Source of the DNA: Synechococcales cyanobacterium M55_K2018_004 | GTDB lineage: Bacteria; Cyanobacteriota; Cyanobacteriia; Elainellales; Elainellaceae | Length of the DNA: 34,004 nt | Direction: 5' to 3' | NCBI GenBank assembly: GCA_015295905.1 | Contig: DVEB01000022.1 | Location: 1-34,004, forward strand | Shown: positions 16,254 to 33,647 of the stretch, one piece after another | Position numbering within the stretch: the first letter of the stretch is position 1 | Layout of the letters: every line of letters starts with the position of its first letter | The notes under the pieces: model-generated | Databases searched by the model: none | Told to the model about the DNA's origin: nothing | What the model saw: the letters and a program-made list of their open reading frames with translations, nothing else | Program-made: the position numbers and the translations under genes

Positions 16254-16745
16254 ATGGTTCTCTGCCTCTCCTCTACCCATCTCCAGGCTCTACGCAACCA
16301 TGCAGAGCGGGCCTACCCCCACGAGTGCTGTGGGCTGCTCTTGGGGATCAAAGGAGCAAGCGAGACGCAGGTGATGACCGTGTGGGCGACAGAAAACGCC
16401 TGGACGCCAACAGTTGAGGAACACCTGGCAGGATCGCAGGCAACGGACATGAAGCATCCCCACAGTCAGCGCGATCGCTACTGGATTGATCCCAAAGACT
16501 TGCTAGAGGCTCAGCGCTATGCCCGCGATCGCCACTTGAATGTGATTGGAGTCTACCACTCGCACCCTGACCATGCAGCAGTGCCCTCGGAGTGCGATCG
16601 CTCCCTAGCTTGGGCGGAATATTCTTACGTAATCCTGTCAGTCGTGCAAGGTTGCGCCCAAGATTTACTATGCTGGTGTTTGGATGAGAATCATCAATTC
16701 CAGTCTGAACCCTTGGTGGTGTCCCCCTCAGCACTGCCAGAGTGA
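16254..16745 (+). CDS. M67 family JAMM metallopeptidase
   Basis: The 163-residue product is a single JAB1/MPN+ (JAMM) domain. The zinc site is complete: Glu24 in YPHECCG, and HSHPDHAAVPSECD with His102, His104, Ser112 and Asp115. Prokaryotic relatives act as deconjugating or maturation proteases on ubiquitin-like sulfur-carrier proteins, often next to ThiF/MoeB-type E1 enzymes. That is the arrangement here: the next gene, 29 bp downstream, is MoeB-like. Start ATG 16254. The carrier protein itself is not in this window. Confidence 0.92.
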   Translation: MVLCLSSTHLQALRNHAERAYPHECCGLLLGIKGASETQVMTVWATENAWTPTVEEHLAGSQATDMKHPHSQRDRYWIDPKDLLEAQRYARDRHLNVIGVYHSHPDHAAVPSECDRSLAWAEYSYVILSVVQGCAQDLLCWCLDENHQFQSEPLVVSPSALPE

Positions 16746-16774: not shown

Positions 16775-17950
16775 ATGTTGAATCCAAACCTGGATGAGAT
16801 CCAGTTAACTAAAGATGATTACGAGCGATATTCGCGCCACTTGATTTTGCCGGAGGTGGGACTAGAGGGGCAAAAACGGCTCAAAGCGGCCAGCGTGCTG
16901 TGTGTTGGCACGGGTGGCCTAGGGTCGCCACTGCTGCTTTACTTGGCGGCAGCAGGGATTGGGCGCATTGGGATTGTTGACTTTGATGTGGTTGACAGCT
17001 CAAACCTGCAGCGACAGGTGATTCACGGCACCTCCTGGGTAGGCAAGCCCAAGATCGAGTCTGCCAAAAACCGCATCCATGAAATTAACCCCTACTGTCA
17101 GGTTGACCTGTACGAGACGCGGTTGAGTTCCGAAAATGCCCTTGACATCTTCCGTGACTATGACGTTATTGTGGACGGCACGGACAACTTCCCCACCCGC
17201 TACCTGGTGAATGACGCCTGCGTGCTGCTGGGCAAGCCCAATGTCTACGGCTCCATCTTCCGGTTTGAGGGGCAGGCTTCGGTGTTCAACTACCAAGATG
17301 GGCCGAACTACCGTGACCTCTATCCTGAACCGCCACCGCCAGGGCTAGTGCCTTCCTGTGCCGAGGGAGGTGTGCTAGGTATTCTACCTGGGGTGATTGG
17401 GGTGATTCAGGCAACGGAGACGGTGAAGATTATTTTGGGCGTGGGGCAGACGCTCAGCGGTCGCCTGTTGCTTTATAACGCCCTCAATATGACCTTCCGT
17501 GAGTTGAAGCTGCGTCCCAACCCAGTGCGTCCGGTGATTGAGACGTTGATCGACTACGAGGAGTTTTGTGGCATTCCCCAAGCGAAAGCCGCTGAGGAGC
17601 AACAAAAAGCAGCCATGCAGGAAATGACGGTTACTGAACTGAAAGCCCTGCTTGATCAGGGGGCTGAAGGGTATGTGCTGATCGACGTGCGCAATCCGAA
17701 CGAGTACGAGATTGCCCGCATTCCTGGCGCAACGCTGATCCCACTACCAGAGATTGAAAATGGAGATGGGGTTGCCAAGGTGAAAGCGCTACTCAACGGC
17801 CACAAGCTGATTGCTCACTGTAAGATGGGCGGGCGATCGGCAAAAGCACTCAGCATTCTGAAGGAGAAAGCAGGCATTGACGGGATCAATGTGAAGGGTG
17901 GCATTACTGCCTGGAGCCGCGAGGTAGATCCAACCGTGCCTGAGTACTAA
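16775..17950 (+). CDS. moeB: MoeB/ThiF-type adenylyltransferase with rhodanese domain
   Basis: This 391-residue fusion activates the C-terminus of a small beta-grasp sulfur carrier (MoaD, ThiS or similar) by adenylation and can supply sulfur through its rhodanese domain. The ATP site is GTGGLG at 45-50 with IVDFDVVDSSNLQRQ; TDN follows at about 136-138, and Cys195 in PSCAEGGVLG is the conserved conjugating-type cysteine. The rhodanese domain (about 285-385) has its active loop CKMGGRS with Cys349. The paired CxxC zinc motifs of E. coli MoeB are not present; only isolated cysteines (195, 265) remain near those sites. It is probably co-transcribed with the JAMM peptidase gene upstream. Confidence 0.92.
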   Translation: MLNPNLDEIQLTKDDYERYSRHLILPEVGLEGQKRLKAASVLCVGTGGLGSPLLLYLAAAGIGRIGIVDFDVVDSSNLQRQVIHGTSWVGKPKIESAKNRIHEINPYCQVDLYETRLSSENALDIFRDYDVIVDGTDNFPTRYLVNDACVLLGKPNVYGSIFRFEGQASVFNYQDGPNYRDLYPEPPPPGLVPSCAEGGVLGILPGVIGVIQATETVKIILGVGQTLSGRLLLYNALNMTFRELKLRPNPVRPVIETLIDYEEFCGIPQAKAAEEQQKAAMQEMTVTELKALLDQGAEGYVLIDVRNPNEYEIARIPGATLIPLPEIENGDGVAKVKALLNGHKLIAHCKMGGRSAKALSILKEKAGIDGINVKGGITAWSREVDPTVPEY

Positions 17951-18452: not shown

Positions 18453-19211
18453 ATGGCTTGGAACCAGCAACATCTCGTTCAGGCTGATGTGAAAACTGCT
18501 GCTCCCAGCGGTGTCAGTTTTCATGTGCGTAATCTCTCCAAGGTCTATGGCATGGGCGAAGTCGAAGTCGTGGCCCTGCAATCGATTGACCTAGATCTGT
18601 ACGATGGCGAATTTGTCGTGATTCTGGGACCATCGGGTAGTGGCAAATCGACCCTGCTGAACATCCTCGGCGGGTTAGATGTCCCCACCAGTGGCCACGT
18701 CTACTTTCACGATCGCGACCTCACCCACACCAACGAGGCTGAACTGACTCGCTTTCGACGCGATTGTGTGGGGTTTATCTTCCAGTTCTACAACCTCATC
18801 CCCAGCCTCACCGCACGCGAAAACGTCGCTTTGGTGACTGACATTGTGCGGCACCCGATGCGGCCAGAGGTGGCCTTAGAGCGGGTAGGATTGGGCGATC
18901 GCCTCGACCATTTTCCCTCCCAACTCTCTGGTGGCGAACAACAACGGGTGGCGATCGCCAGAGCCATTGCCAAGCGTCCTGAAGTCCTGCTCTGTGACGA
19001 ACCCACTGGAGCGCTGGACTACAAAACTGGAAAGCTGGTGTTGGAGGCATTGCAGCGGGTGAACCAGGAATTGGGGACGACGACGGTCGTGATTACCCAC
19101 AACGCGGCGATCGCCAATATGGCAGACCGGGTGGTGACGATGCGGAGTGGTGAAATTACCCGCATCCAGCGCAACGAGAAAAAAGCGTCGCCAGAGGAGT
19201 TGGAGTGGTAA
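18453..19211 (+). CDS. ABC transporter ATP-binding protein (MacB/LolD type)
   Basis: The 252-residue ATPase has Walker [10 protein letters not shown] at 59-67, Q-loop Gln111, signature LSGGEQQ at 158-164 and Walker B VLLCDEP at 178-184, in the pattern of the MacB/LolD/FtsE subfamily that pairs with FtsX-type permeases. It probably drives mechanotransmission rather than ordinary membrane translocation. Start ATG 18453. Its stop codon TAA overlaps the ATG of the permease gene by one base, so the two genes are translationally coupled. Confidence 0.95.
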
Positions 19212-21574
19212 TGAAAGCACTCGACCGCAAACTAGGGCGCGACCTGCGCCGGCAGTGGGGGCAGATTCTGGCGATCGCCCTAATTGTGGCCTGTGGCATT
19301 TGCAGTTTTGTGGCGATGCAGAGTGCTTACGAATCCCTCAAGTTGTCGCAGACCACCTATTACGAGCAGTACCGATTTGCCGATGTGTTTGCTCAGTTGA
19401 AGCGGGCACCAGAGTCTTTGCGATTGCCAATTGAGGCAATTCCTGGGGTGAGCCAGGTGCAGACGCGCATCCTGGTGGATGTGACATTGGATGTGCCCGG
19501 ACAAACAGAACCCGTGACAGGACGAATTATCTCCATCCCGGCCCAGCCAACTCCCATGTTGAACGACCTCTACCTCCGCCAGGGGCGTTATATCGACCCA
19601 GGACACCCAGAGGAGGTGCTGGTCAGCGAAGCATTTGCTCAAGCGAACAATTTGCAGTTAGGCGACACAATTGGAGCCGTGATCAACGGGCGCTGGCAAC
19701 AATTGCGCGTTGTGGGGTTTGCCCTGTCGCCAGAATACGTTTACGAAATTCGTCCGGGGGCGCTATTACCCGACAGCAAGCGATTTGGCGTGATCTGGAT
19801 GGGGCGCAAGGCGATCGGCTCGGCTTTTGATATGGAGGGAGCATTTAACGATGTGGCTGTGTCCCTAGCGCCTCATGCCAGTTCTGCCGAGGTGATTTTT
19901 CGCCTCGACCGCTTACTAGAAGCCTATGGTGGACTGATGTCCTACGACCGCAAGGATCAACCTTCCAATCGGTTTGTTTCCGATGAAATTGTGCAACTGC
20001 GTGCCCACGCCATCATCCTGCCTGTTATCTTTTTGGGGATTGGTGCATTTTTGTTAAATATCGTGTTGTCTCGCTTAATTAGTACACAACGCGACCAGAT
20101 TGCCGTACTGAAAGCATTTGGCTATGGCAATCCAGCGATCGCTCTCCATTACCTCAAATTTGTGCTGGCGATCGTCCTGTTGGGGGCTACTCTTGGCATC
20201 GCGGCAGGACTGTGGCTGGGGTCTGCCCTGACAGGGATCTATACACAGTTCTACCATTTCCCCGTGTTGCAATACACCATCAGTCCAGCATTAATATTCA
20301 CAGCGGTTTTCATCAGTAGTAGTGCTGCTGTAGTGGGGGCGTTTGGGGCTGTGCAACGGGCTGTGCAACTGCCGCCAGCGGAGGCGATGCGGCCCGAACC
20401 GCCAGCAGTTTTCCGCCGCACCCTCCTAGAGCGGCTCGGGTTGCAACGATTCCTATCTCCTGTGGGACGCATCATTCTTCGCAATCTGGAGCGCAAACCC
20501 ATCCAGGCTATTCTTTCTATTCTGGGCATTGCGCTCTCTGTTGCCTTGCTGCTAACGGGGCGGTTTTCGATGGATGCGATCGACTACATCATGGAGGTGC
20601 AGTTCCAACAGGTGCAGCGCGATGATGTGACGGTTGTGTTTAACGAACCGCGTCCGGCGCGGGCGACCTACGAAGTTATGCACCTGCCGGGGGTGATGCA
20701 GGCAGAACCATTTCGCAGTGTGGCGGTGCGGTTGCGATCGCAGCACTACACCTACAAGATTGGGGTCATGGGGTTAGACCCACACGGTCAACTGCGACAA
20801 CTGATCAACCGGGAGTTGCAACCCGTCCAGTTGCCCCCCGATGGCCTGGTGCTGACCACTAAATTGGCAGAACTGCTGCACGTCGAACCGGGTGACTCGC
20901 TGACGATGGAGGTACTGGAGGGCGATCGCCCCGTCAAAACCGTCACGCTGGCGGCAACGGTGGATGAACTGGTGGGTGTGTCTGCCTATATGGATCGCCA
21001 CGCGCTGAACCGACTGATGCAGGAAGGTGGTACGCTTTCTGGCGCATTTCTCAAAGTCGATGCCAACCAACTCGCCCCCCTCTACACCCAACTCAAGCAA
21101 ACGCCTGCTGTGGCAGGCGTCACCCTGCGGCAGACCATCATCGAGGAATTCAAAAAAACGATCGCCACTAGCCAAGGCATCGCTACCTTAGTTCAGGTTA
21201 TTTTTGCCTGTGTGATTGCCTTTGGCGTCATCTATAACGCCGCCCGCATTTCCCTGTCGGAGCGCAGCCGCGAACTAGCAACCCTGCGGATTATTGGCTT
21301 CTCGCGAGTGCAGATCGCCGTTGTGTTGCTGGGCGAACAGGCAGTCTTGACGATCGCCGCTATTCCCGTTGGCTTCCTGCTGGGCTACGGCATTGTCTCG
21401 CTGCTGGTTCTCGCCTACAGTACGGAACTCTACCGGATGCCGCTGATTGTCACGAAGGCGAGTTACCTGTTTGCGTTTGGGGTGACGGCGATCGCCGCCT
21501 TCGTCTCTGGCCTGATCGTCCGTCGCCACCTCGATCACCTAGACTTGATCGCCGTCCTCAAGACCCGCGAATAA
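19211..21574 (+). CDS. Large ABC transporter permease, two FtsX domains
   Basis: The 787-residue membrane protein has an N-terminal membrane anchor (LAIALIVACGICSFVAM), a periplasmic domain, a first FtsX block (about 255-385, beginning AIILPVIFLGIGAFLLNIVL), a second anchor and periplasmic domain, and a C-terminal FtsX block (from about 645, including LATLRIIGFSRVQIAVVLLG). The duplicated layout distinguishes it from the ~390-residue DevC permeases of cyanobacteria. Start ATG 19211 overlaps the ATPase stop codon; the GTG at 19205 is less likely. With the flanking ATPase and adaptor it should form an efflux or lipid-export complex. The substrate is unknown. Confidence 0.92.
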   Translation: MKALDRKLGRDLRRQWGQILAIALIVACGICSFVAMQSAYESLKLSQTTYYEQYRFADVFAQLKRAPESLRLPIEAIPGVSQVQTRILVDVTLDVPGQTEPVTGRIISIPAQPTPMLNDLYLRQGRYIDPGHPEEVLVSEAFAQANNLQLGDTIGAVINGRWQQLRVVGFALSPEYVYEIRPGALLPDSKRFGVIWMGRKAIGSAFDMEGAFNDVAVSLAPHASSAEVIFRLDRLLEAYGGLMSYDRKDQPSNRFVSDEIVQLRAHAIILPVIFLGIGAFLLNIVLSRLISTQRDQIAVLKAFGYGNPAIALHYLKFVLAIVLLGATLGIAAGLWLGSALTGIYTQFYHFPVLQYTISPALIFTAVFISSSAAVVGAFGAVQRAVQLPPAEAMRPEPPAVFRRTLLERLGLQRFLSPVGRIILRNLERKPIQAILSILGIALSVALLLTGRFSMDAIDYIMEVQFQQVQRDDVTVVFNEPRPARATYEVMHLPGVMQAEPFRSVAVRLRSQHYTYKIGVMGLDPHGQLRQLINRELQPVQLPPDGLVLTTKLAELLHVEPGDSLTMEVLEGDRPVKTVTLAATVDELVGVSAYMDRHALNRLMQEGGTLSGAFLKVDANQLAPLYTQLKQTPAVAGVTLRQTIIEEFKKTIATSQGIATLVQVIFACVIAFGVIYNAARISLSERSRELATLRIIGFSRVQIAVVLLGEQAVLTIAAIPVGFLLGYGIVSLLVLAYSTELYRMPLIVTKASYLFAFGVTAIAAFVSGLIVRRHLDHLDLIAVLKTRE

Positions 21575-21601
21575 CCACCACCATTCCCCCTGGAGGATGT
21601 G

Positions 21602-22999
21602 ATGAAACAACTCCCACCCCGTCCCTCAACCCTGCAGGACAACGTCCCCGCCGTTGCCCCCAGACCCCGACGGGCTTTTAAACTGCCGTTGAAGCGGTTG
21701 CTCTACGTAGCGCTGGGCGTGGGGGCATTGGTTCTGGTGGCAACGCTGTTGCGCCCCACCCCCCCTCGGGTGGAAACGGCCACAATTCAACGGGGCGACC
21801 TGTTGGTGACGGTGGAGGAGGAGGGCAAAACGCGGGTGCGTGATCGCTACCAAGTGGCCGCCGAAACTCCTGGCTACCTCAACCGCATCACGTTGAAGGA
21901 GGGGGACGCCGTCAAGCAAGGAGACGTCGTCGCCCAGATCGATGCCCTGCCAAGCACGACGGAGATCCAGCAAGCTCTGGCACAACTCCAGGAGTTGCGT
22001 GCCCAGCGTGCTGGAGTGGCCACCCAACGCCCCAAAACCGCTGCGCTTGAGCAGGCGAGGAGCCGCATTGACGCTGCGGCAGCTCGCCAACAGCAGGCCA
22101 ATGCCAGGGTTGCCCAGGCCAAGGCTGCACTGGAACAAGCTAGGCGCGATCGCCAGCGCAACCAGGAACTTGCCGCTGCCGGAGCAATCTCCCAACAATC
22201 GCTAGAAGCCGCACAACTAGCAGAGACTACCCGTGCCCGCGAACTCGATGCCGCAGAATTAGAGGCCAATGCTGCTGCCGCCGCTGTGCAGGTCGCCAGA
22301 AATGAACTGACTGTCTTGCAGCAGGAACAACGCGACCCTGATTACCTGCTGCGCGTCTATGATGCTCGCATTGCCAGCACCGAAGCCCAACTGACCAGGC
22401 TCCGCAACAATGCTGAACGCACTGAAATTCGATCGCCTATCACGGGTCGAGTGTTGCGGATTCACCAAGAAAGCGCTCAGTACGTCGCTAGTGGCACTCT
22501 CCTGATGGAGATTGCTAATCCAAATCAATTGGAACTGGTGATTGATGTGCTCTCCAGCGATGCCTTGACGATCAAACCAGGAGACCCGATCCGAGTGGTT
22601 TTAGGCAGTGAGATGGAACCGCTGGCAGCGCGGGTAAAGCGGATTGAACCGGCTGCCTTCACGAAGGTCTCTGCGTTGGGAGTGGAGGAACAGCGCGTGA
22701 ACGTGATTGGTGAATTCGTCAACCCACCCCAAAATTTGGGAGACGGCTATCGGGTGGATGCGGCGATCGCCATCTGGCAGGGCAGAGATGTGGTGAAAGT
22801 CCCTATCAGTGCCATTTTTCGGTGCGGGGGCGATCGCTGGTGCACGTTTGTCGCTGCCAACGGCAGAGCCAATCAGCGGCAAATTGAGATCGGACGCCGC
22901 AGTTCTCTGGAGGCTGAAGTCCTGCACGGGCTCACGGTGGGCGATCGCGTCATCCTCCATCCTAGTGGACAGATTCGTGACCAACAGCGCATCCGCTAA
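21602..22999 (+). CDS. HlyD/MacA-type periplasmic adaptor
   Basis: The 465-residue membrane-fusion protein has a proline-rich cytoplasmic start, one membrane anchor at about 35-49 (LLYVALGVGALVLVA), a biotinyl-lipoyl-like half (VAAETPGYLNRITLKEGDAVKQ), a long alanine- and glutamine-rich coiled-coil hairpin (about 115-275) and the returning half IRSPITGRVLRIHQES, followed by a beta-barrel. It would link the inner-membrane ABC complex to an outer-membrane channel. ATG 21602 is preferred because TGGAGG lies 5 nt before it; an adjacent GTG at 21599 is possible. No outer-membrane TolC-like gene is in the window. Confidence 0.92.
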   Translation: MKQLPPRPSTLQDNVPAVAPRPRRAFKLPLKRLLYVALGVGALVLVATLLRPTPPRVETATIQRGDLLVTVEEEGKTRVRDRYQVAAETPGYLNRITLKEGDAVKQGDVVAQIDALPSTTEIQQALAQLQELRAQRAGVATQRPKTAALEQARSRIDAAAARQQQANARVAQAKAALEQARRDRQRNQELAAAGAISQQSLEAAQLAETTRARELDAAELEANAAAAAVQVARNELTVLQQEQRDPDYLLRVYDARIASTEAQLTRLRNNAERTEIRSPITGRVLRIHQESAQYVASGTLLMEIANPNQLELVIDVLSSDALTIKPGDPIRVVLGSEMEPLAARVKRIEPAAFTKVSALGVEEQRVNVIGEFVNPPQNLGDGYRVDAAIAIWQGRDVVKVPISAIFRCGGDRWCTFVAANGRANQRQIEIGRRSSLEAEVLHGLTVGDRVILHPSGQIRDQQRIR

Positions 23000-23015: not shown

Positions 23016-25064
23016 CTATACGTCGCGTAACCGCCGCCTAGACTGCACCAACTTCACGCGATACGGATCAGCATCCTTGCGCCACACCACGCGATGGCCC
23101 TTCAACTCGGCACAGTGCTCCTCTAGGCATTTCTGCCAACCCCGATAGTCGTAAATCAGGCGTAAGTCGTCCAGTAAGCCCCAATCAGTTTCCTGACGAG
23201 TCAGTTTGGCAAACTTTTCGTAGAGGGGATAGTCAGTTGTCACCATCAAATCCTTTTGATGCAGCAGGGGAGGATTATCGTCTGGGTCGTAATCCTGGTA
23301 GTGGACGTGCAGGTCTCGCAGATCGATCTGCATACGAGTGTGGAGTGCAGGGTGGGGGTCTGTGTCAAAGTTGGGATAGAACAGGTAAGAAATCTTGGGT
23401 TGACGGAAGTGGAACTTGACCACATTGGCTTCTGAGGGGCGACCAATGGTGCGAGAAGCGCAACCTTCGTAGAGCCGCAGCAGCGGGTCGAGCGCCTCGA
23501 TCGCCGACACATGTACCCACAGGGAATTGGGTCGCTTCTGCCCAATGGCACTCTGCTTGCAGCGTTCTGCAATCACGTTCAAATTACCTAGGCTCATCAA
23601 CATCAGGTCTGCCGCCGCGCAGGCTTGCTGATAGCTTCCGAACAGACTTTTGATGTCGTTCTGCACCACTGGGGTGAGGTCCCGCAGCTTAGGACGGCGA
23701 CCAAAGTGGCTCAACGCCAGGTAAACCAACAGATCATGACGACGACGATCGCTAATGGCATCCCATTCCTGCGGGTTTGTGGCTTGCAGCACGATCTGAA
23801 ACGCCCGCCGCAGCGTGCCAAATTCGGTGTTCAGGACTGCGGCTTCAGGCAATTCCTCTGCCACTGGCAGTCGTCCCCGTTCCGTAAAGAAATTCATCAA
23901 CGGCGTGAGCAGTTCCCGATAGTCCTCAAACCGCTTGTTCGCCAGGTGAACCTTGGGAACACTGACCCGCGATCGAAAGCGGGAGGCTCGGAAGCTTTGG
24001 GCTTGAGCCTCATCCCGAAACACAAAGTAAATTCCCAACGCCACGGGAATCGAGTCAACTCCCAGCACTTGGTCAATGTAGAGCTTCAGTTCTTCCTGGT
24101 CGTAGTATTTCTGAAAGGTGTTGCGGCTGGTAATCACCCCGTCTCCGTAGGCAATCTGACTACTGCCCTGGGCGATTAACACCTGCGCCGACACAATTAA
24201 GACTTGCCGCGTCAGTGCCCAGGCGTTGATTAAGGCGTCCCGCCGCTCTGCCGGAGACTCAATGACATTGATGACATAGCCGAGGTTGACCACATCTGCC
24301 TCCCTCAGAGGCACCTGTGGACGATAGTGAGGATCCCACCCGGCACTGTCATAGCCCAGCTTGGCCACCCGCTCCACGTCACCCCCCAGCCCACAGCCAT
24401 AGTCAAAAAAAGTGGTGGACGGGTTGAGCAGCCCTGTTTCTAGGGCCAACCGCACAGGTTTGGAAAAGTCATTGCGGCTGATGGCGGCCTTGTGGCGATC
24501 GATCTTGACCGGCGTGGACGGGGAATTGAGCAGGGAGCGATGCACCAGCGTATGCCCCTGAAACGCCACTTGGAATTGGGCGAGGCGTTCTTCCCAGGCA
24601 AGGCGAGTCCCGATCGCCCTAGGATTGTCTAGCAGCCCCAGCGCTTCCTCCTGGCGGGTCAAGGCTGCAAACTGCGGGTAGTGCGGATATTCTGGGGTAA
24701 CGAAAGTCTCCTTGCGGTGAAGAATGAATGGATTGGCGGCATCCCTGTAATCGCGATGGCTGACCTCACCAGTTTGCACATTCACCTGGATGCTGGCTTG
24801 GAGGGCAGGATGGGGGTCTGAGTCGAAATCGGGATAGAGCAAATAGGAAACGCTAGGCTTCTGCAGGCTGAATTTGACCAACGTCATGCGCTCTGGATAA
24901 TTTGCGATTTGTCGGGCTGCACGTTCGTAATCTTGCAGAAGCGAATCGAGAACCGCTAGCGCTGAAACGTGAACGTACAGAGCACCGGGCAAGCGTTTAC
25001 CGACTTGGCTCTGCTGGCAGGCAATGGCGATTGCATCCCAATCACTGCGGCAACTCGATATCAT
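23016..25064 (-). CDS. DNA phosphorothioation-associated methyltransferase with duplicated flanking domain
   Basis: The 682-residue protein matches the family known as DNA phosphorothioation-associated putative methyltransferase. The SAM-binding segment is FFDYGCGLGGDVERVA (motif I at 221-229), with GWDPHY at 242-247 and NLGYVINVIES at 260-270, after KAAISRNDFSKPVRLALE. Residues about 12-176 recur at about 498-662 with a constant offset of 486, without gaps and roughly half identical by eye; shared blocks are LYVHVSA/LWVHVSA and DSDPHPAL/DTDPHPAL. The methyltransferase core is thus sandwiched between two copies of one domain. ATG 25064 overlaps the stop of the preceding small gene (ATGA), so they are coupled. 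The methylated substrate is not known. Confidence 0.9.
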   Translation of the reverse strand: MISSCRSDWDAIAIACQQSQVGKRLPGALYVHVSALAVLDSLLQDYERAARQIANYPERMTLVKFSLQKPSVSYLLYPDFDSDPHPALQASIQVNVQTGEVSHRDYRDAANPFILHRKETFVTPEYPHYPQFAALTRQEEALGLLDNPRAIGTRLAWEERLAQFQVAFQGHTLVHRSLLNSPSTPVKIDRHKAAISRNDFSKPVRLALETGLLNPSTTFFDYGCGLGGDVERVAKLGYDSAGWDPHYRPQVPLREADVVNLGYVINVIESPAERRDALINAWALTRQVLIVSAQVLIAQGSSQIAYGDGVITSRNTFQKYYDQEELKLYIDQVLGVDSIPVALGIYFVFRDEAQAQSFRASRFRSRVSVPKVHLANKRFEDYRELLTPLMNFFTERGRLPVAEELPEAAVLNTEFGTLRRAFQIVLQATNPQEWDAISDRRRHDLLVYLALSHFGRRPKLRDLTPVVQNDIKSLFGSYQQACAAADLMLMSLGNLNVIAERCKQSAIGQKRPNSLWVHVSAIEALDPLLRLYEGCASRTIGRPSEANVVKFHFRQPKISYLFYPNFDTDPHPALHTRMQIDLRDLHVHYQDYDPDDNPPLLHQKDLMVTTDYPLYEKFAKLTRQETDWGLLDDLRLIYDYRGWQKCLEEHCAELKGHRVVWRKDADPYRVKLVQSRRRLRDV

Positions 25065-25270: not shown

Positions 25271-25499
25271 GGCAAGATGAGACGGCTCGTAATAAACACC
25301 CTAATTTTATCAGGCCTCTTTCATGGCACAGGGCGATGTCACTAGACAGCGATTGCGGCAGAGCTGCACCGTCTAGCTAATGCTGAGCGCCAATTGGACA
25401 AACCAGCCGGAAGTCGAGATTTGCTAAAGTTTGGGAGAGATGCATCGGGTTTGCCATGCCTACTCGTTTCAGTGGTATCCAGTGCTGAGGTTGCCAGCC

Positions 25500-26090
25500 A
25501 TGACTCAAACTGCCCCCAAGCCACCCAAACTGCTCACGATGGAGGACTATCTGGACTATGACGACGGCACCGACACCCGCTACGAGTTGGTGGATGGCGA
25601 ATTAGTGGAAATGCCCGTAGAGAGCCAGGTTAATCTCAATATTGTTAAATATCTGCTGTTTGAATTTGCCAAGTATCTCCCGATCGCGCTGTTGGCAACG
25701 ATGACTGAAGTGGAAGTCTCAGGTAAACGAGCCAAGAGCCGAGTACCTGATTTGATGGTGCATTCAGAGGAATCCTGCTCGGCATTGTCTGGAGGCAAGC
25801 GCGCGATCCTACTGCGAGATATGCCGCCTCCAGCATTGGTGATCGAAGTCGTCTCCCCAGGGCAAGAGAATCGGGACCGGGACTACCGCTTCAAGCACAC
25901 AGAGTATGCTGCCCGCGGCATCAATGAATATTGGATTATTGACCCGGAGCTTCAGCAGGTGACGGTGTGCCTGTGGGTGAATGGGCAGTATGAAGACACG
26001 GTGTATCAGGGCGATACGCCCATTCAATCTACAGTAGTGCCTGATTTTAAGCTCAGCGCCGCTCAAATTCTGGCGTTTGGACAAAATTAA
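25500..26090 (+). CDS. Uma2 family (DUF820) endonuclease, tandem copy 1
   Basis: The 196-residue protein is a Uma2-type PD-(D/E)XK nuclease-fold protein, a family greatly expanded in cyanobacteria and of unclear cellular role. Visible features are the N-terminal [20 protein letters not shown], the catalytic Asp in RVPDLMV, and ALVIEVVSP with a following lysine-containing [11 protein letters not shown] 25500 is preferred because residues encoded upstream (from 25431) do not fit the family. Its first ~75 bp after the start region and its last ~238 bp are almost identical to the next gene, while the middle differs strongly. Confidence 0.88.
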
Positions 26091-26106
26091 TGGGAGCTGG
26101 CGAGCC

Positions 26107-26700
26107 ATGATGCAAACTACACCCCGCACCTCTAAACTGCTGACACTGGAGGACTATCTGGACTATGACGACGGCACCGACACCCGCTACGAGTTGGTGG
26201 ATGGCGAATTAGTAGAAATGCCAACGGAATCTCCAGAGAATTGCAAGCTCGCCAAATTGCTGATGCTGGAATTGGCAAAACACCTTCCGATCGTGCTGAT
26301 CAACCTCAAGGATACAGAAATTGTGGTTAGCGGCAGGCGGGCAAAGGTGCGGTTGCCTGACTTAGTTGTACTCAGCGAAGAGGGGTATGCTGCTTTGGCA
26401 GGACAACGCCGCAATATAATTACTCAGGAGATGCCACCCCCCGCTTTGGTAGTTGAGGTGGTCTCCCCAGGGCAAGAGAATCGGGACCGGGACTACCGCT
26501 TCAAGCATACAGAGTATGCTGCTCGCGGCATCAATGAATATTGGATTATTGACCCGGAGCTTCAGCAGGTGACGGTGTGCCTGTGGGTGAATGGGCAGTA
26601 TGAAGACACGGTGTATCAGGGCGATACGCCCATTCAATCTACAGTAGTACCTGATTTTAAGCTCAGCGCCGCTCAAATTCTGGCGTTTGGACAAAAATAA
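26107..26700 (+). CDS. Uma2 family (DUF820) endonuclease, tandem copy 2
   Basis: The 197-residue paralogue of the preceding gene starts 16 bp after its stop. The active-site pattern is kept ([24 protein letters not shown]). The last ~238 bp differ from copy 1 at only three visible positions, all synonymous, and an N-terminal 75-bp block differs at one. The central ~80 residues are only about half identical. Start ATG 26107 is supported by alignment with copy 1; ATG 26110 is an alternative. It lies upstream of the sspBCD operon with 261 bp between. Confidence 0.88.
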
Positions 26701-26961: not shown

Positions 26962-27885
26962 ATGACGATCGAACCAGCGCTGCGCCATCCTGATCCTCGC
27001 AGTCCGACCAGAGGGATGGTCTTTGCTCGTCATGAGACTTTTCACCCGCGTTTTGGCTGGCTGAAAAAGGGGTTCGATCGCGCGGCTCACGATCCCAAAG
27101 TGTTTTTGAGGGAGGATGCCCCGGTTCGGTTGGGCGTGGGGAAAAACATGGTGCGCTCGATTCGGTACTGGTGCACCGCTTTCAAACTGTTGCAGGATGA
27201 CCAGCCGACGGAATTTGGTCAGCAGCTTTTGGGGTCGCAGGGATGGGACCCTTACCTGGAAGACCCTGCTTCTCTTTGGCTACTGCACTGGACATTGCTG
27301 GAAGCCCCTCACCTAGCAACCGCTTGGAACATAACGTTCAATGAGTTTCGTGCGGTTGAGTTTACGGTTGAAGAATTGTTCTATCAGCTTTGTGAGTATC
27401 GCGATCGCCATGCCCCTCGAATTTCCGACTCTTCCCTCAAAAAAGACGTAAGTTGCTTACTGCGGATGTATGTGCCCCAGCCTGGGGGGAAGGCTCACGT
27501 CAGCGAAGAGTCCCTCGACTGCCCCTTTACGCAACTAGGGTTGATTCACACCGCCGGAGATGCACGGCACTACAAGTTTCGTGTCGGACAGAAGCCAAAC
27601 TTGCCCCCAGAACTGGTAGTCTATGCTTGCTTGCAGCATCATGCTCAAGTCGGTAGCTCTGCCAAAACCATGCCCATTGCCAATTTGCTCTATGACCCCG
27701 GTAGTCCAGGATTGGTATTTAAGCTAACGGAGAGCGTCCTTTGTGATGCAATTGAAGTTGTCGCTCGGCGCTGCGAAAAAATTCGCTTGTCTGATGCTGC
27801 CGGAAAACTGCAATTTTCCATTGAGGGAGAGCCATTGAGCCTAGCAGGGGCTATTTTAGACGGGTACTACCGAGCGGGAAGATGA
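26962..27885 (+). CDS. sspB: DUF4007 protein, SspB-like component of DNA phosphorothioation
   Basis: The 307-residue protein belongs to DUF4007, the family of SspB, reported as the DNA-nicking component of SspABCD phosphorothioation, which places a sulfur on one DNA strand. The family signature is clear: ARHETFHPRFGWLKKGFD at 22-39, then LREDAPVRLGVGKNMVRSI and RYWCTAFKLL. The stop codon overlaps the start of the next gene (ATGA), so it is translationally coupled to sspC. The ATG at 26962 lacks a good ribosome binding site; ATG 27016 is possible, but would cut close to the conserved HETF segment. A nicking role here is inferred from family and operon. Confidence 0.8.
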   Translation: MTIEPALRHPDPRSPTRGMVFARHETFHPRFGWLKKGFDRAAHDPKVFLREDAPVRLGVGKNMVRSIRYWCTAFKLLQDDQPTEFGQQLLGSQGWDPYLEDPASLWLLHWTLLEAPHLATAWNITFNEFRAVEFTVEELFYQLCEYRDRHAPRISDSSLKKDVSCLLRMYVPQPGGKAHVSEESLDCPFTQLGLIHTAGDARHYKFRVGQKPNLPPELVVYACLQHHAQVGSSAKTMPIANLLYDPGSPGLVFKLTESVLCDAIEVVARRCEKIRLSDAAGKLQFSIEGEPLSLAGAILDGYYRAGR

Positions 27886-30800
27886 GCAAGATGACCAAAA
27901 CACCTGCGGCGACGCACCGCAAACAGGCTCTATCGACCTATTTTGAGGTACACCGTCGCTACTATCGCTCCGTCAATTTAGAGCGAGACCTGGACAAGCC
28001 AAGTGCGGTGCAGGGCTATGTTCCGACGGAGCGATCTGCTGAAGCGTTGCGGCGGATTCTGTCGGCCCTTGGTGACCCCAATGCCCACCGCGCCTGGACG
28101 CTCACTGGGGTCTACGGCACTGGCAAGTCAGCCTTTGCTCATTTTTTGGCGGCATTGTGCGCCCCGGAGGGCAGTGCCATTGCTGAGGCAGCATGGGCGA
28201 TCGCCGAATCCGTTTTTGCCGATGACAGCCCTGAAATGGAGGCAGTTAGACGCATTCCTGAAGCGGGGTTAGTGAGAGCGGTGGCCACCGCCCAACGAGA
28301 GCCGCTGAGTTGGACGATTGTCCGTGCTCTGTCCTACGGCTTTGACCGATTTTGGCAAAAGAAACGAAAGCCCGACTTCTGGATGGATCTGAATGAGTGG
28401 CGCTTTCAGGCAGAGGAAGGCAACTGCCAGGTTACCGACCAACAGGTGTTGAAGTTGCTGCGGGAGCTTGTTCAGGCTGTTGAAACAGATGTGCTGCTCA
28501 TCATCGATGAGTTGGGCAAGAATCTGGAATACGCCGCTCATCACCGGGGGACTCAGGATCTATACCTCTTGCAACAAATTGCAGAGCTAGAGCTAGAAGG
28601 CAATTACCAAGTTCATTTGGTGGGAATTCTCCACCAGTCCTTTGCTGGCTATGGCGATCGCCTTTCGACTGTTGAGCAAAGCGAGTGGACTAAAATTCAC
28701 GGGCGATTTACCGATCTAGTCTTGACCGAATCGCCCAGCCAGATGACGCGGCTGATTGGACAAGCCATAACACAGTCTAAGGCTGACTCGATTCTTCCTA
28801 CCCTTCACCGCCAAGCCGAATGCTGGTTTGAGGCGTTCCAGGATGTGCTTGCGGAGTACGAAATTTCAGCCAACGTCTTAGCAGAAACCTACCCGTTGCA
28901 TCCCTTGGCGGCGTTGGTGTTGCCCATGCTCTGTGTGCGTTACGCCCAGAACGATCGCTCGCTGTTTACCTTCCTCACCAGCGACGAGCCTTACGCCTTG
29001 CCGCAATTTCTCAAGTCTACGGCCATTCAAGAAGACAAAATCCCCACGCTGAAACTGCACCAACTTTATGACTATTTTGTGGAATCCGTCACTGGGCTGG
29101 CATCGCGGCTCAATCTCCAGCGTTGGGTTGAAATACAAGGGCTGATTCAGGATGCCAGGGATCAGAGTCAAGCCATTCTCAACGTCTTGAAAACCATTGG
29201 AGTGCTTAACCTAGTCACCTCGACTGGCGCGTTACGGGCAACCCCTGACCTTGTGACACTGGCCCTGTGCGATTCTCCTAGCGATGAGCAGGGCCGTCAG
29301 CATTGGCGGGAAGTCATCGAGTCTCTGAAGCAGAAGAAACTCATCACCCACCGCAGTGCTCAAAACGAACTGCGGATCTGGCAGGGTTCAGATTTTGATA
29401 TTGAAGCCGCAATTCAAGCGCAGATTGAACAGACGCGCACCCCTCTAGCAGATCGATTGACCACAACCTATCCCTTAAAACCGCTGGTCGCTCAACGCCA
29501 CTACACCACAACAGGCAACCTCCGCTATTTTGAACAGCGCTATGTGGATAGTCGGGTTGACCTCCAGGCGTTGACCTGTGCCAATCCTGGCAGTGACGGC
29601 CTGATCGCCTACTGGCTCGACACGGCATCACCTGCATCCGTGCCATCGCACACTGCTGATGGAAAGCCGTTGATTGTGATTGCTGTGACCGACCTAGAAC
29701 TTCTGCGAATGCGGAGTGAAGACTTTGGGGCACTGAAACAGATCTGGCAAGAGGCTCCTGAGTTGCAAACAGATGGTGTAGCCAAGCGGGAGGTGCGACA
29801 ACGCTTGGTCGAAGCGGAGCAACTGCTGAACGAAACCATTGCGTTTACCTTTAACTGGGCTACCCAGCAAACGACCTGCTGGATTGAAGGTCAACTGACG
29901 GCAATTGAGTCTGCTAGGGGCTTTCAAGCGGCGCTTTCAGACCTGTGCGATCGCACCTACTGCCAGGGCTTGGTGCTCGACAATGAACTGATCAATCGCC
30001 GTGAACTGACATCCCAGGGGGCAAAAGCGCGGCGCGAACTGATCGAGGCGATGCTCAAAAATGCTGACCAGCCCCGCCTGGGGCTAGATGGCTATGGGCC
30101 GGAGGTCGCCATGTATGGCTCGGTGCTAGAGGCGACGGGGATGCATCGTCAAGACGGGGGGGAATGGGGCTTTTATCCCCCGCTTGCCAATTCGGGCGTG
30201 GCGGCAGTGTGGGATGCGATCGCCCACTTCTGTCGATCTGCCAGCGATCGCCCCCAATCTCTAGACTTGCTTTATCGCCAACTAGAACACCCCCCCTTTG
30301 GGGTTAAACCAGGCGTTATTCCCGTCTTGCTAGCCGCATTTCTGCTGGTGCATATGGATGACATCGGCATCTACAAAGACGGCACCTTTATCCCTATCTT
30401 GGGGCCAGAACACTTTGAGTTGTTGGTGAAAGAACCAGCACGCTTCTCGGTGAAATACTTTGACCTGGCAGGACTGCGATCGCAGGTCTTCCGGGAACTA
30501 GAAGCCGTCTTAAAATCACCGACAGCCAAGACTCCTGCTGGTGTGCGAAATACGTCATTGCTCGCCGTGGCTAAGCCCTTGTTTCGCTTTGTGCGACAAC
30601 TGCCAGACTTTGCCCGCGCGACAAAGCGGCTGAGCGTGGCAGCCCGCAACGTGCTGCAAGCCCTCCAGACTGCCCAAGAACCCGATGCCTTGCTGTTTGT
30701 CGCGCTGCCCCAAGCGTGTGGGTTCAATCCGATGACGACGGGGCGTGCGGAAAATGAGTCAGAGGCCAGAGCCTTTCGCAAGAAACTGGTGCAGTGCCTC

Positions 30801-31412
30801 CACGAAATTCAAACTGCCTACGACAATCTGTTAGCTGACTGTCAAAAGCACCTATATGTAGCCTTTGGAGTCCGCAGCAAGGAAGCCAACCTACGGGAAG
30901 ATTTGCGCGTGCGGGCCAGTTATCTGGTGGGACAATGCATTGATCCGGTTTTGCGGCATTTCGTCACCAAAGCCGTAGACGAAGACTCGTCTGACCGAGA
31001 GTGGCTAGAAGCGTTGGTTAGAATTGTGGCCGATAAACATCCCAAGGGGTGGACTGATGAAGACTTTAGCCGCTTTGAACTCGCTTTGAGTGATTTGGTG
31101 CGTCGGTTTGAGAATTTGGAAGCCTTGCAGACTGAAATTCGACGGCAAGGCAAAGGATTTGAGGCACGACGGATTACCATCACAGCACCCAATGGCAAAG
31201 AAATTCATGAAGTCGTTTGGATTGATGCCGAACACCAGGAGTTGTTTGAGCAACTGGTTAAAACGGTGTTAGATGATCCGGCATTGAAAGATAACCCCCG
31301 GCTTCAGAAGGGGTTCTTGGCCAAGCTCAATGAAACACTCTTGAGCCGCAACGATGCAGATGTACAGGGGGAATGGGGAAAACCTAAACTGAGGAAAGGG
31401 CAGTCAGCATGA
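27882..31412 (+). CDS. sspC: Large P-loop ATPase, SspC-like
   Basis: The 1176-residue cytoplasmic ATPase has Walker A GVYGTGKS at 76-83 and Walker B VLLIIDE at 204-210, followed by LGKNLEY and a sensor-like region LVGILHQSFAGYG. The remaining ~900 residues are unassigned, mostly helical-looking, and without membrane segments. Its position between a DUF4007 gene and a PAPS reductase-like gene, with ATGA overlaps at both ends, identifies it as the SspC ATPase of an Ssp phosphorothioation module. Its overall layout also recalls the BrxC/PglY class of defence ATPases, so the family assignment rests partly on context. Confidence 0.78.
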   Translation: MSKMTKTPAATHRKQALSTYFEVHRRYYRSVNLERDLDKPSAVQGYVPTERSAEALRRILSALGDPNAHRAWTLTGVYGTGKSAFAHFLAALCAPEGSAIAEAAWAIAESVFADDSPEMEAVRRIPEAGLVRAVATAQREPLSWTIVRALSYGFDRFWQKKRKPDFWMDLNEWRFQAEEGNCQVTDQQVLKLLRELVQAVETDVLLIIDELGKNLEYAAHHRGTQDLYLLQQIAELELEGNYQVHLVGILHQSFAGYGDRLSTVEQSEWTKIHGRFTDLVLTESPSQMTRLIGQAITQSKADSILPTLHRQAECWFEAFQDVLAEYEISANVLAETYPLHPLAALVLPMLCVRYAQNDRSLFTFLTSDEPYALPQFLKSTAIQEDKIPTLKLHQLYDYFVESVTGLASRLNLQRWVEIQGLIQDARDQSQAILNVLKTIGVLNLVTSTGALRATPDLVTLALCDSPSDEQGRQHWREVIESLKQKKLITHRSAQNELRIWQGSDFDIEAAIQAQIEQTRTPLADRLTTTYPLKPLVAQRHYTTTGNLRYFEQRYVDSRVDLQALTCANPGSDGLIAYWLDTASPASVPSHTADGKPLIVIAVTDLELLRMRSEDFGALKQIWQEAPELQTDGVAKREVRQRLVEAEQLLNETIAFTFNWATQQTTCWIEGQLTAIESARGFQAALSDLCDRTYCQGLVLDNELINRRELTSQGAKARRELIEAMLKNADQPRLGLDGYGPEVAMYGSVLEATGMHRQDGGEWGFYPPLANSGVAAVWDAIAHFCRSASDRPQSLDLLYRQLEHPPFGVKPGVIPVLLAAFLLVHMDDIGIYKDGTFIPILGPEHFELLVKEPARFSVKYFDLAGLRSQVFRELEAVLKSPTAKTPAGVRNTSLLAVAKPLFRFVRQLPDFARATKRLSVAARNVLQALQTAQEPDALLFVALPQACGFNPMTTGRAENESEARAFRKKLVQCLHEIQTAYDNLLADCQKHLYVAFGVRSKEANLREDLRVRASYLVGQCIDPVLRHFVTKAVDEDSSDREWLEALVRIVADKHPKGWTDEDFSRFELALSDLVRRFENLEALQTEIRRQGKGFEARRITITAPNGKEIHEVVWIDAEHQELFEQLVKTVLDDPALKDNPRLQKGFLAKLNETLLSRNDADVQGEWGKPKLRKGQSA

Positions 31413-32221
31413 GCAAGAAGCAGAAAACGGTGCGGCACATTTTGGGCCTTTCGGGTGGAAAAGACAGTACGGCTCTGGCAATCTTTATGCGCCAACACTA
31501 TCCTGAGCTAGAAATCGAGTATTTCTTTTGTGATACCCACAAGGAACTGAAGGAAACCTACGACTACCTCAGACGCATTGAAGATTGGCTGGGCATCAAA
31601 ATTCACTACTTAGAAGCAGAGCGCGGTTTTGACCACTGGCTAGAGGTCTACGGCGGCGTGCTGCCATCCCCTAAAATGCGGTGGTGTACCAAGCAGATGA
31701 AGATTATTCCCCTAGAAAAATGGGTCGGGGATGATGAAGCAATTTCTTATATTGGCATTCGCGCCGATGAGAATCGAGACGGCTACATCTCAACCAAACC
31801 CAATATCACCGCACGATTTCCTTTCAAAGAGCATGGTCTGGTCAAAGCGGATATTCTTCGCCTGCTCGAAGAGAGCGGTATCGGTATGCCGGATTACTAT
31901 CGCTGGCGATCGCGCTCTGGCTGCTACTTTTGTTTCTTCCAGCGTAAGTATGAATGGGTGATGTTGGCCCAAGAGCATCCTGACCTGTTCCAAAAGGCCG
32001 TGGACTACGAGCAAAATCACCGAGACGGCAGAACCTACACCTGGACCCAGGGGGAAACCTTGTTGGAACTGCTAGACCGCAAGGAACAAATCATTGCCGA
32101 CCACCAGAAGGCTATGGCACGAGAAGCCCAGCAGATGCCCGATCGCCCTTTGGTGGACGCTTTGGAAGCTATTTTGGATGAAGAGGACGACACCTTGCCC
32201 TGTCTGGCGTGCCATCTATAA
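31409..32221 (+). CDS. sspD: PAPS reductase-like sulfurtransferase, SspD/DndC-like
   Basis: The 270-residue PP-loop protein has the ATP-pyrophosphatase motif LSGGKDS at 14-20 and belongs to the PAPS reductase superfamily. In phosphorothioation systems this component (DndC, SspD) activates the DNA backbone and handles sulfur. Conserved-looking cysteines are Cys93 (RWCTKQMK) and Cys172/Cys175 (GCYFCFF), candidates for an iron-sulfur cluster or sulfur relay. An unusual CLACHL tail adds two more at the extreme C-terminus. It is coupled to sspC by an ATGA overlap. A cysteine desulfurase partner must come from elsewhere, as none is in the window. Confidence 0.83.
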   Translation: MSKKQKTVRHILGLSGGKDSTALAIFMRQHYPELEIEYFFCDTHKELKETYDYLRRIEDWLGIKIHYLEAERGFDHWLEVYGGVLPSPKMRWCTKQMKIIPLEKWVGDDEAISYIGIRADENRDGYISTKPNITARFPFKEHGLVKADILRLLEESGIGMPDYYRWRSRSGCYFCFFQRKYEWVMLAQEHPDLFQKAVDYEQNHRDGRTYTWTQGETLLELLDRKEQIIADHQKAMAREAQQMPDRPLVDALEAILDEEDDTLPCLACHL

Positions 32222-32272
32222 GCTGAACTCCAGGGATTGAGTACTGTTCGAGAGGCCCATTCAGGAGGCTTG

Positions 32273-32866
32273 ATGATCACCACCGCCATCCAACCCACTC
32301 AAACCCCTCAACCTGTGCGATTCACGGTGCAGGACTATCACCGTTTAGTGGACCTTGGCTTTCTAGGCGAAGACGACCACATTGAGCTAATTCGGGGGGA
32401 GTTAATCCAAATGGCCGCACGAGGCACCGCCCACGAAACCTGTCTTCGACGGTTATTGCGAATTTTACCTGGGATCATTGGCGATCGCGCCACGCTCCAG
32501 TGCCAGTCACCCATCACCATCGCCTCTGATGGAGAACCGGAGCCAGACTTTGCCATCGTGCAAAACCGGGAAGATGACTATGCCTCGGCCCATCCCACTG
32601 CACAGGAAACCTTGCTTGTGATTGAGGTGGCGGATTCTTCGCTGGAGTACGATCGCACGGTGAAGCTGGCTCTCTATGCTGAGGCTGCCATTCCCCACTA
32701 TTGGCTGTTCAATGTCATCGATCGCACGCTGGAAGCCTACAGCGAACCCGCTCAAATTACACCAGGGCAGTTTGGCTATCTGAATCGCCAGATTGTTACG
32801 CCGTCTGGTGCGATCGCCCTGCCGATGGGAGAGCAGCCCCTTGCCCTTGCCCACATTTTTCCTTGA
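32273..32866 (+). CDS. Uma2 family (DUF820) endonuclease
   Basis: The 197-residue Uma2 protein has the catalytic pattern EPDFAIV, LLVIEVADSS and a following YDRTVKLALYAEAAI. It differs clearly from the tandem pair at 25500-26700 and is not a recent copy of it. ATG 32273 has GGAGG four nt upstream, a good ribosome binding site that fixes the start. It follows sspD by 51 bp on the same strand and could be transcribed with the phosphorothioation operon. Confidence 0.88.
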   Translation: MITTAIQPTQTPQPVRFTVQDYHRLVDLGFLGEDDHIELIRGELIQMAARGTAHETCLRRLLRILPGIIGDRATLQCQSPITIASDGEPEPDFAIVQNREDDYASAHPTAQETLLVIEVADSSLEYDRTVKLALYAEAAIPHYWLFNVIDRTLEAYSEPAQITPGQFGYLNRQIVTPSGAIALPMGEQPLALAHIFP

Positions 32867-32945: not shown

Positions 32946-33647
32946 ATGGAGGCACCGAGAATCGGTCTCAGCGGAGAGAGAGCTATCATGCCCCTAACGG
33001 CTCAGGAATTGGCAGACCTAATGCCCGATGCCCGTCAACTGGAGAGCGATGAACCGGAGATGGAAAGTTCGGTACACTATGCCCAGTTGGCGCTCCTGGT
33101 GGCCTGTCTGGAATGGCTGTGGCGCGATCGCACTGACTTTTTTATTGGGGCGAATCTCTCTATTTACTTCAGCCGTGACCAGCTAAAAAAGCGCGACGTT
33201 CAAGGCCCAGATTTTTTTCTCGTCATGCACACAGAGCGCAAACCCCGAAAATCTTGGGTGGTGTGGGAAGAAGGCGGGCAGTATCCTGACTTGATTATTG
33301 AGTTGTTGTCTCCCGCGACGGCCCAAATCGACCGTAGTCTGAAAAAAGCCCTTTACCAAGATCGGTTCAGAACTCCAGAGTATTTCTGGTTTTCGCCAGA
33401 CACCCTAGAATTTGAGGGCTATCGGCTAGTGGGGCAACACTATGAGGCCATCGCCCCCAACGAGATAGGCTGGCGCTGGAGTGAGGTGCTGGGGTTGTTT
33501 TTGGGGGTGCAGGATGGGCAGTTGCGCTATTTTACGGAATCAGGGGAACTGGTGCCAACCCCACAAGAGGCTGCGGCTCAGGCAGAGGCGCGATCGCGGC
33601 GATTAGCAGAGCAGTTGAGGGCGCTGGGGGTGGAGCCAGATGCTTAG
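32946..33647 (+). CDS. Uma2 family (DUF820) endonuclease, longer type
   Basis: The 233-residue Uma2 protein belongs to the subgroup starting LTAQELADLMPDA. The nuclease-fold core shows GPDFFLV, PDLIIELLSPATAQIDR and a lysine-containing KKALYQDRF. A C-terminal tail rich in alanine, glutamate and arginine follows, likely a coiled coil. ATG 32946 has AGGAG eight nt upstream; ATG 32988 (MPLTAQELADL) is a reasonable alternative start. It follows the previous Uma2 gene by 79 bp. Confidence 0.85.
   Translation: MEAPRIGLSGERAIMPLTAQELADLMPDARQLESDEPEMESSVHYAQLALLVACLEWLWRDRTDFFIGANLSIYFSRDQLKKRDVQGPDFFLVMHTERKPRKSWVVWEEGGQYPDLIIELLSPATAQIDRSLKKALYQDRFRTPEYFWFSPDTLEFEGYRLVGQHYEAIAPNEIGWRWSEVLGLFLGVQDGQLRYFTESGELVPTPQEAAAQAEARSRRLAEQLRALGVEPDA

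Follow-up and report, generated by a model that had tools for sequence, protein, structure and literature searches.

A phosphorothioation-associated putative methyltransferase family carries one or two copies of a mobile domain, of which the paired copies are not equivalent

Introduction

DNA phosphorothioation (PT) has been described with a fixed gene list. The window analysed here, that is, the whole 34,004-nucleotide stretch of cyanobacterial DNA, holds together the genes for three proteins of the Ssp system, SspB (DUF4007; 26962..27885), SspC (27882..31412) and SspD (PAPS-reductase family; 31409..32221), all on the plus strand. Divergent from them, as in many relatives, lies a minus-strand gene (23016..25064) whose 682-aa product matches TIGR04096, the NCBIfam family "DNA phosphorothioation-associated putative methyltransferase", in two stretches and with 882.9 bits (cut-off 150). 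In the available parts of the published descriptions of the Ssp (SspABCD) and Dnd (DndABCDE) systems, the TIGR04096 gene is not a named component, nor is the family treated in the accessible portions of the Dnd and BREX surveys. We found no paper testing its function in the open-licence literature, where one paper mentions it, as an annotation entry only. Does this protein belong with the PT machinery, and why does it carry the same domain, called R here, on both sides of its methyltransferase core (M)?

Results

An initial sequence-only reading had proposed that the two ends of the protein are copies of one domain, aligned without gaps at a constant offset of 486 residues and about 50% identical by eye. 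The repeat was borne out: residues 12-176 align with residues 498-662, ungapped and at an offset of 486, and the similarity of the ends is clear, although the measured identity is lower, 71/165 or 43%. BLASTP of the two ends against each other gave 147 bits (E 1e-49, 63% positives), and their local alignment scored 363, whereas 1000 shuffles reached at most 69, so that the similarity is significant. At the DNA level the two copies are only 54% identical, indicating that the duplication is old.

The N-terminal copy, R1 (residues 8-178; 24531..25043, minus strand), is canonical, with 11/11 residues of a signature defined below, and the C-terminal copy, R2 (residues 494-665; 23070..23585, minus strand), is divergent, with 8/11. 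Between them lies M (residues about 187-372; 23949..24506, minus strand; about 187-353 in a narrower delimitation), which is, as the same reading had it, a methyltransferase core: it matches class I SAM methyltransferases (Foldseek E 1e-4; VIA Z of 11-13 for many of them, maximum 13.3), and the fold matches of the full-length protein are confined to it. M carries the glycine-rich SAM motif FDYGCGLGGD and a motif IV region GYVINVIE. Within residues 187-372, neither the [DNS]PP[YFW] motif IV of DNA amino-methyltransferases (N6A / N4C) nor the PC catalytic motif of DNA C5-cytosine methyltransferases is present. A helical segment (residues 383-491; 23592..23918, minus strand; from about residue 377 in a wider delimitation) connects M to R2 and resembles two homing-endonuclease-associated (HAR) repeats. 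The HAR (PF18780) match at residues 454-487 has E 5e-4 and 20.7 bits, below the Pfam gathering score of 26; such a match, at E<=0.01, is found in 8/36 family members, and the second repeat was recognized by eye. The full-length AF2 model has a mean pLDDT of 88 and a pTM of 0.64. The TIGR04096 family and the window protein have in common the M core, the helical segment and the C-terminal R. The TIGR04096 model (478 positions), however, spans M, the helical segment and R2 only, and R1 of the window protein aligns to it as a second match, at model positions 303-477.

Comparison of sequences and predicted structures indicates that R is a complete, mobile domain. Modelled alone, R1 gave a pLDDT of 93.7 and a pTM of 0.87, and free-standing R is found in KVP40-group Vibrio phages, a 485-kb uncultured phage, a Cetobacterium plasmid and viral contigs. 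The R1 model, these free-standing proteins and the single-copy family members rule out, within the reach of prediction and homology, that the two ends are one split domain. Used directly as a query, the full-length protein found no homologues among the viral contigs; the R alignment found seven loci there. R also occurs in phages that have no PT genes annotated alongside it. On one phage contig (L101), a single protein encoded among head genes joins R to an M-like methyltransferase, an inorganic pyrophosphatase and an XkdF-type protease; this R and M fusion is multidomain like the phage polyvalent proteins (PMC5512222), whereas the bacterial gene encodes a separate PT-linked protein. An M-like methyltransferase is also encoded within a few kb of R in the 485-kb phage, where a small search set gave a weak match (E 7.6e-6), and at L102. 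Against PDB structures R gave no convincing match (best Foldseek E 0.19; best VIA Z 3.7), which does not imply a novel fold, and its profile matched no chain among PDB sequences at E<=10. One viral predicted structure matched R with E 1.9e-6.

Some details of the phage loci may be recorded here. The R proteins of Vibrio phages KVP40 (KVP40.0371; L092:4953-5912) and D479 (VPHD479_0014; L093:3950-4474) are hypothetical proteins with 11/11 signature residues, and phrog_16075, related to them, has no known function. The polyprotein at L101:3287-5668 runs, in order, from a zinc-type HNH-like start (by eye) through R, M and inorganic pyrophosphatase to the XkdF-type protease.

The survey of homologues that the sequence-only reading had called for did reveal single-copy versions, and they are common. 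R-M-R and single-R (M-R) forms both occur in the family; the R-M-R form is common and no local oddity, being found in cyanobacteria, Proteobacteria and one Spirochaete, and both Actinobacteria seen have the M-R form, which in one case spans two open frames. A homologue is also encoded on plasmid pSYSM of Synechocystis PCC 6803 (SGL_RS00125). In the tree of R copies all R1 form a single clade (94/77), and the single-R copies of cyanobacteria are placed with cyanobacterial R2. The tree of the M core requires three changes of architecture, its deep support being weak and its branches very long. We rejected the idea that genomes with M-R forms supply a separate R in trans, since 26 genomes (25 with M-R and G080) each had one R match, inside the gene itself. 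Likewise, the idea that the partner system sets the architecture (M-R with Dnd, R-M-R with Ssp) describes a tendency only: DndD is no more than 10 kb away from 18/24 M-R forms and 4/29 long forms, and exceptions are an M-R form with Ssp (L096) and R-M-R forms with Dnd (L038, L040, L079). In genome G080 the single R is a degenerate one (R2), with a remnant of R1 ahead of M. R2 is shortened by about 54 residues, with R1 intact, in a cyanobacterial family (f12) and in Geminocystis (L123-L128, L057).

The two copies were compared at residues chosen beforehand from reference proteins alone, as those that do not vary across 25 single-R proteins and four R proteins of phage or plasmid origin. These form an 11-residue signature, G22, K23, Y30, H32, F80, P86, H116, K118, I151, G152 and W157, basic and aromatic in character and including G-K, Y-x-H and H-x-K. 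As judged by this signature, R1 and R2 are no equal pair; R1 holds the whole signature, and R2 the scaffold with an incomplete one. All 11 residues are present in 45/47 N-terminal copies and 10/11 in the other two, and C-terminal copies retain two to ten, never all; in 46/46 proteins R1 retains more than R2. In the window protein R2 has K changed to Q509, Y to W516 and G to Y638. The cyanobacterial copies score alike at 55 conserved positions outside the signature (0.784 for N-terminal and 0.771 for C-terminal copies), compared with 1.00 and 0.764 at the signature, indicating that R2 lost a site and not its fold. Since the tree places cyanobacterial R2 nearer to the single-R proteins, the signature test is biased against the result obtained. 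A further 36 R-M-R proteins served as a hold-out; exact duplicates had been removed from it, and some of its members are closely related to proteins of the first set. In 36/36 of them, R1 had 11/11 and R2 fewer than 11. With both sets pooled, the full signature is present in all but two of 83 R1 copies, and R1 exceeds R2 in 82/82 pairs. A simple rule describes this: one canonical R per protein, in the R1 position when two are present.

This asymmetry bears on the proposal, also made in the sequence-only reading, that R1 and R2 form an internal pseudo-dimer recognizing a symmetric or two-site substrate. In its favour, both copies are complete and are predicted to share one secondary structure. 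However, the systematic excess of signature residues in R1, the shortening of R2 in several lineages and the frequency of single-R members all speak against it, leaving the proposal unsupported, and we regard it as the least probable of the readings considered here.

The conservation of the signature would also suit an enzyme: R might be catalytic through its H/K-rich signature and act before or after M, R2 being a pseudoenzyme copy. The 11 residues, with their G-K, Y-x-H and H-x-K, are invariant from phages to cyanobacteria, phages carry R as free-standing proteins, and the pattern of loss in R2 may be that of a pseudoenzyme. On the other hand, no known enzyme fold was found for R, and it has no invariant acidic residue and thus no obvious metal site; we consider an enzymatic R unlikely.

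The link to PT, which had been read from the sequence, is upheld by membership in TIGR04096 and by gene content. In 386 genomes drawn from the cyanobacterial phylum, the TIGR04096 gene was present in 102, DndD in 94 and both in 91, figures that are inflated by shared ancestry. (The family cut-off was passed in 104 genomes, of which G159 and G385 had fragments only and were excluded.) The gene was thus missing from 3/94 genomes with DndD; conversely, five genomes have it with no DndD or SspD detected, strong SspD matches being counted. In some genera, for example g45 and g58, the TIGR04096 gene and the PT genes vary in step. Judging from gene content, the TIGR04096 gene is almost obligatory with the PT machinery in the surveyed cyanobacteria.

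Physical linkage takes several forms. In Rhodobacteraceae SC52, sspD-sspC-sspB is divergent from sspA and the TIGR04096 gene; in Pseudoalteromonas the TIGR04096 gene heads dndBCDE; in several cyanobacteria dndC-dndD-dndE is followed by an M-R form; and on two contigs of the viral collection sspC-sspD stands directly ahead of the TIGR04096 gene. Among long forms in genomes with DndD, 25/29 are more than 10 kb away from it, and unlinked long forms adjoin mreC/mreD-like genes (named by sequence reading) in Nostocaceae or in Microcystis. The frequent lack of linkage between long forms and dnd genes would fit a general methyltransferase with no role in PT, its association arising from shared defence islands or ancestry. 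Its presence, however, tracks the PT genes even when unlinked, and the pairing is conserved in cyanobacteria, Proteobacteria and viral contigs, which makes such a general role highly improbable.

At four loci (L038:4496-5785, L039:4706-5737, L040:3746-4951 and L055:3430-4644) a DndC-like gene of the PAPS-reductase family stands divergent beside an R-M-R gene, possibly as a variant PT module. This arrangement, together with the strict association with PT genes, could also mean that the signature is a docking surface, with R1 or a single R tethering the protein to DndC/SspD or DndD/SspC and R2 serving as filler. The occurrence of R in phages with no PT genes annotated alongside it does not agree with such docking, and we think it decidedly unlikely.

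Discussion

The co-occurrence of the TIGR04096 gene with DndD in 91/94 cyanobacterial genomes suggests that it is a missing component of PT. As to what the component does, we hold with moderate confidence, from sequence and structure prediction, that it is a PT accessory enzyme in which R1 binds or processes a substrate, R2 is scaffold and M works outside canonical DNA-base chemistry. Together, the signature residues (G-K, Y, H, F, P, H-x-K, I-G and W) would make up a single candidate site for binding or processing, whose substrate would most likely be PT-DNA, PT-precursor DNA or an intermediate of sulfur transfer. Following duplication, only R1 would have gone on using this site, with R2 and the helical repeats providing a scaffold. 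By the canonical chemistry, M is unlikely to methylate a DNA base at C5 or at an exocyclic amine.

The PT-binding cavity in the sulfur-binding domain (SBD) of ScoMcrA likewise presents H, R/K, Y and P residues (PMC6224610). The resemblance of this domain to R is in residue types only and is to be taken as a lead; the SBD was not among the fold matches listed for R. A bolder extension is that R represents a new class of PT-recognizing or PT-processing domain within a missing, conserved PT component, and that free-standing R, in phages such as the KVP40 group, is a counter-measure masking or altering PT marks, which at present we judge quite unlikely. R combines conservation from bacteria to phages with the lack of a convincing PDB match and with one clear candidate site, and because of this site its role can be tested directly by point mutations in R1 versus R2.

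In the window itself, no sspA (cysteine desulfurase) or sspE (effector) was identified, and DndD is absent from the source genome. Four genes of the Uma2 family flank the ssp genes (25431-26090, 26077-26700, 32237-32866 and 32946-33647); two of these stand between the methyltransferase gene and sspB, an interval that in several relatives is too short to hold them. An ABC exporter operon (ATPase, permease and membrane-fusion protein; 18453-22999) converges on the methyltransferase gene. Further away, a JAB-domain protein (16254-16745) is followed by a MoeB/MoeZ-type E1 with a rhodanese domain (16775-17950), and the two are likely a sulfur-carrier pair.
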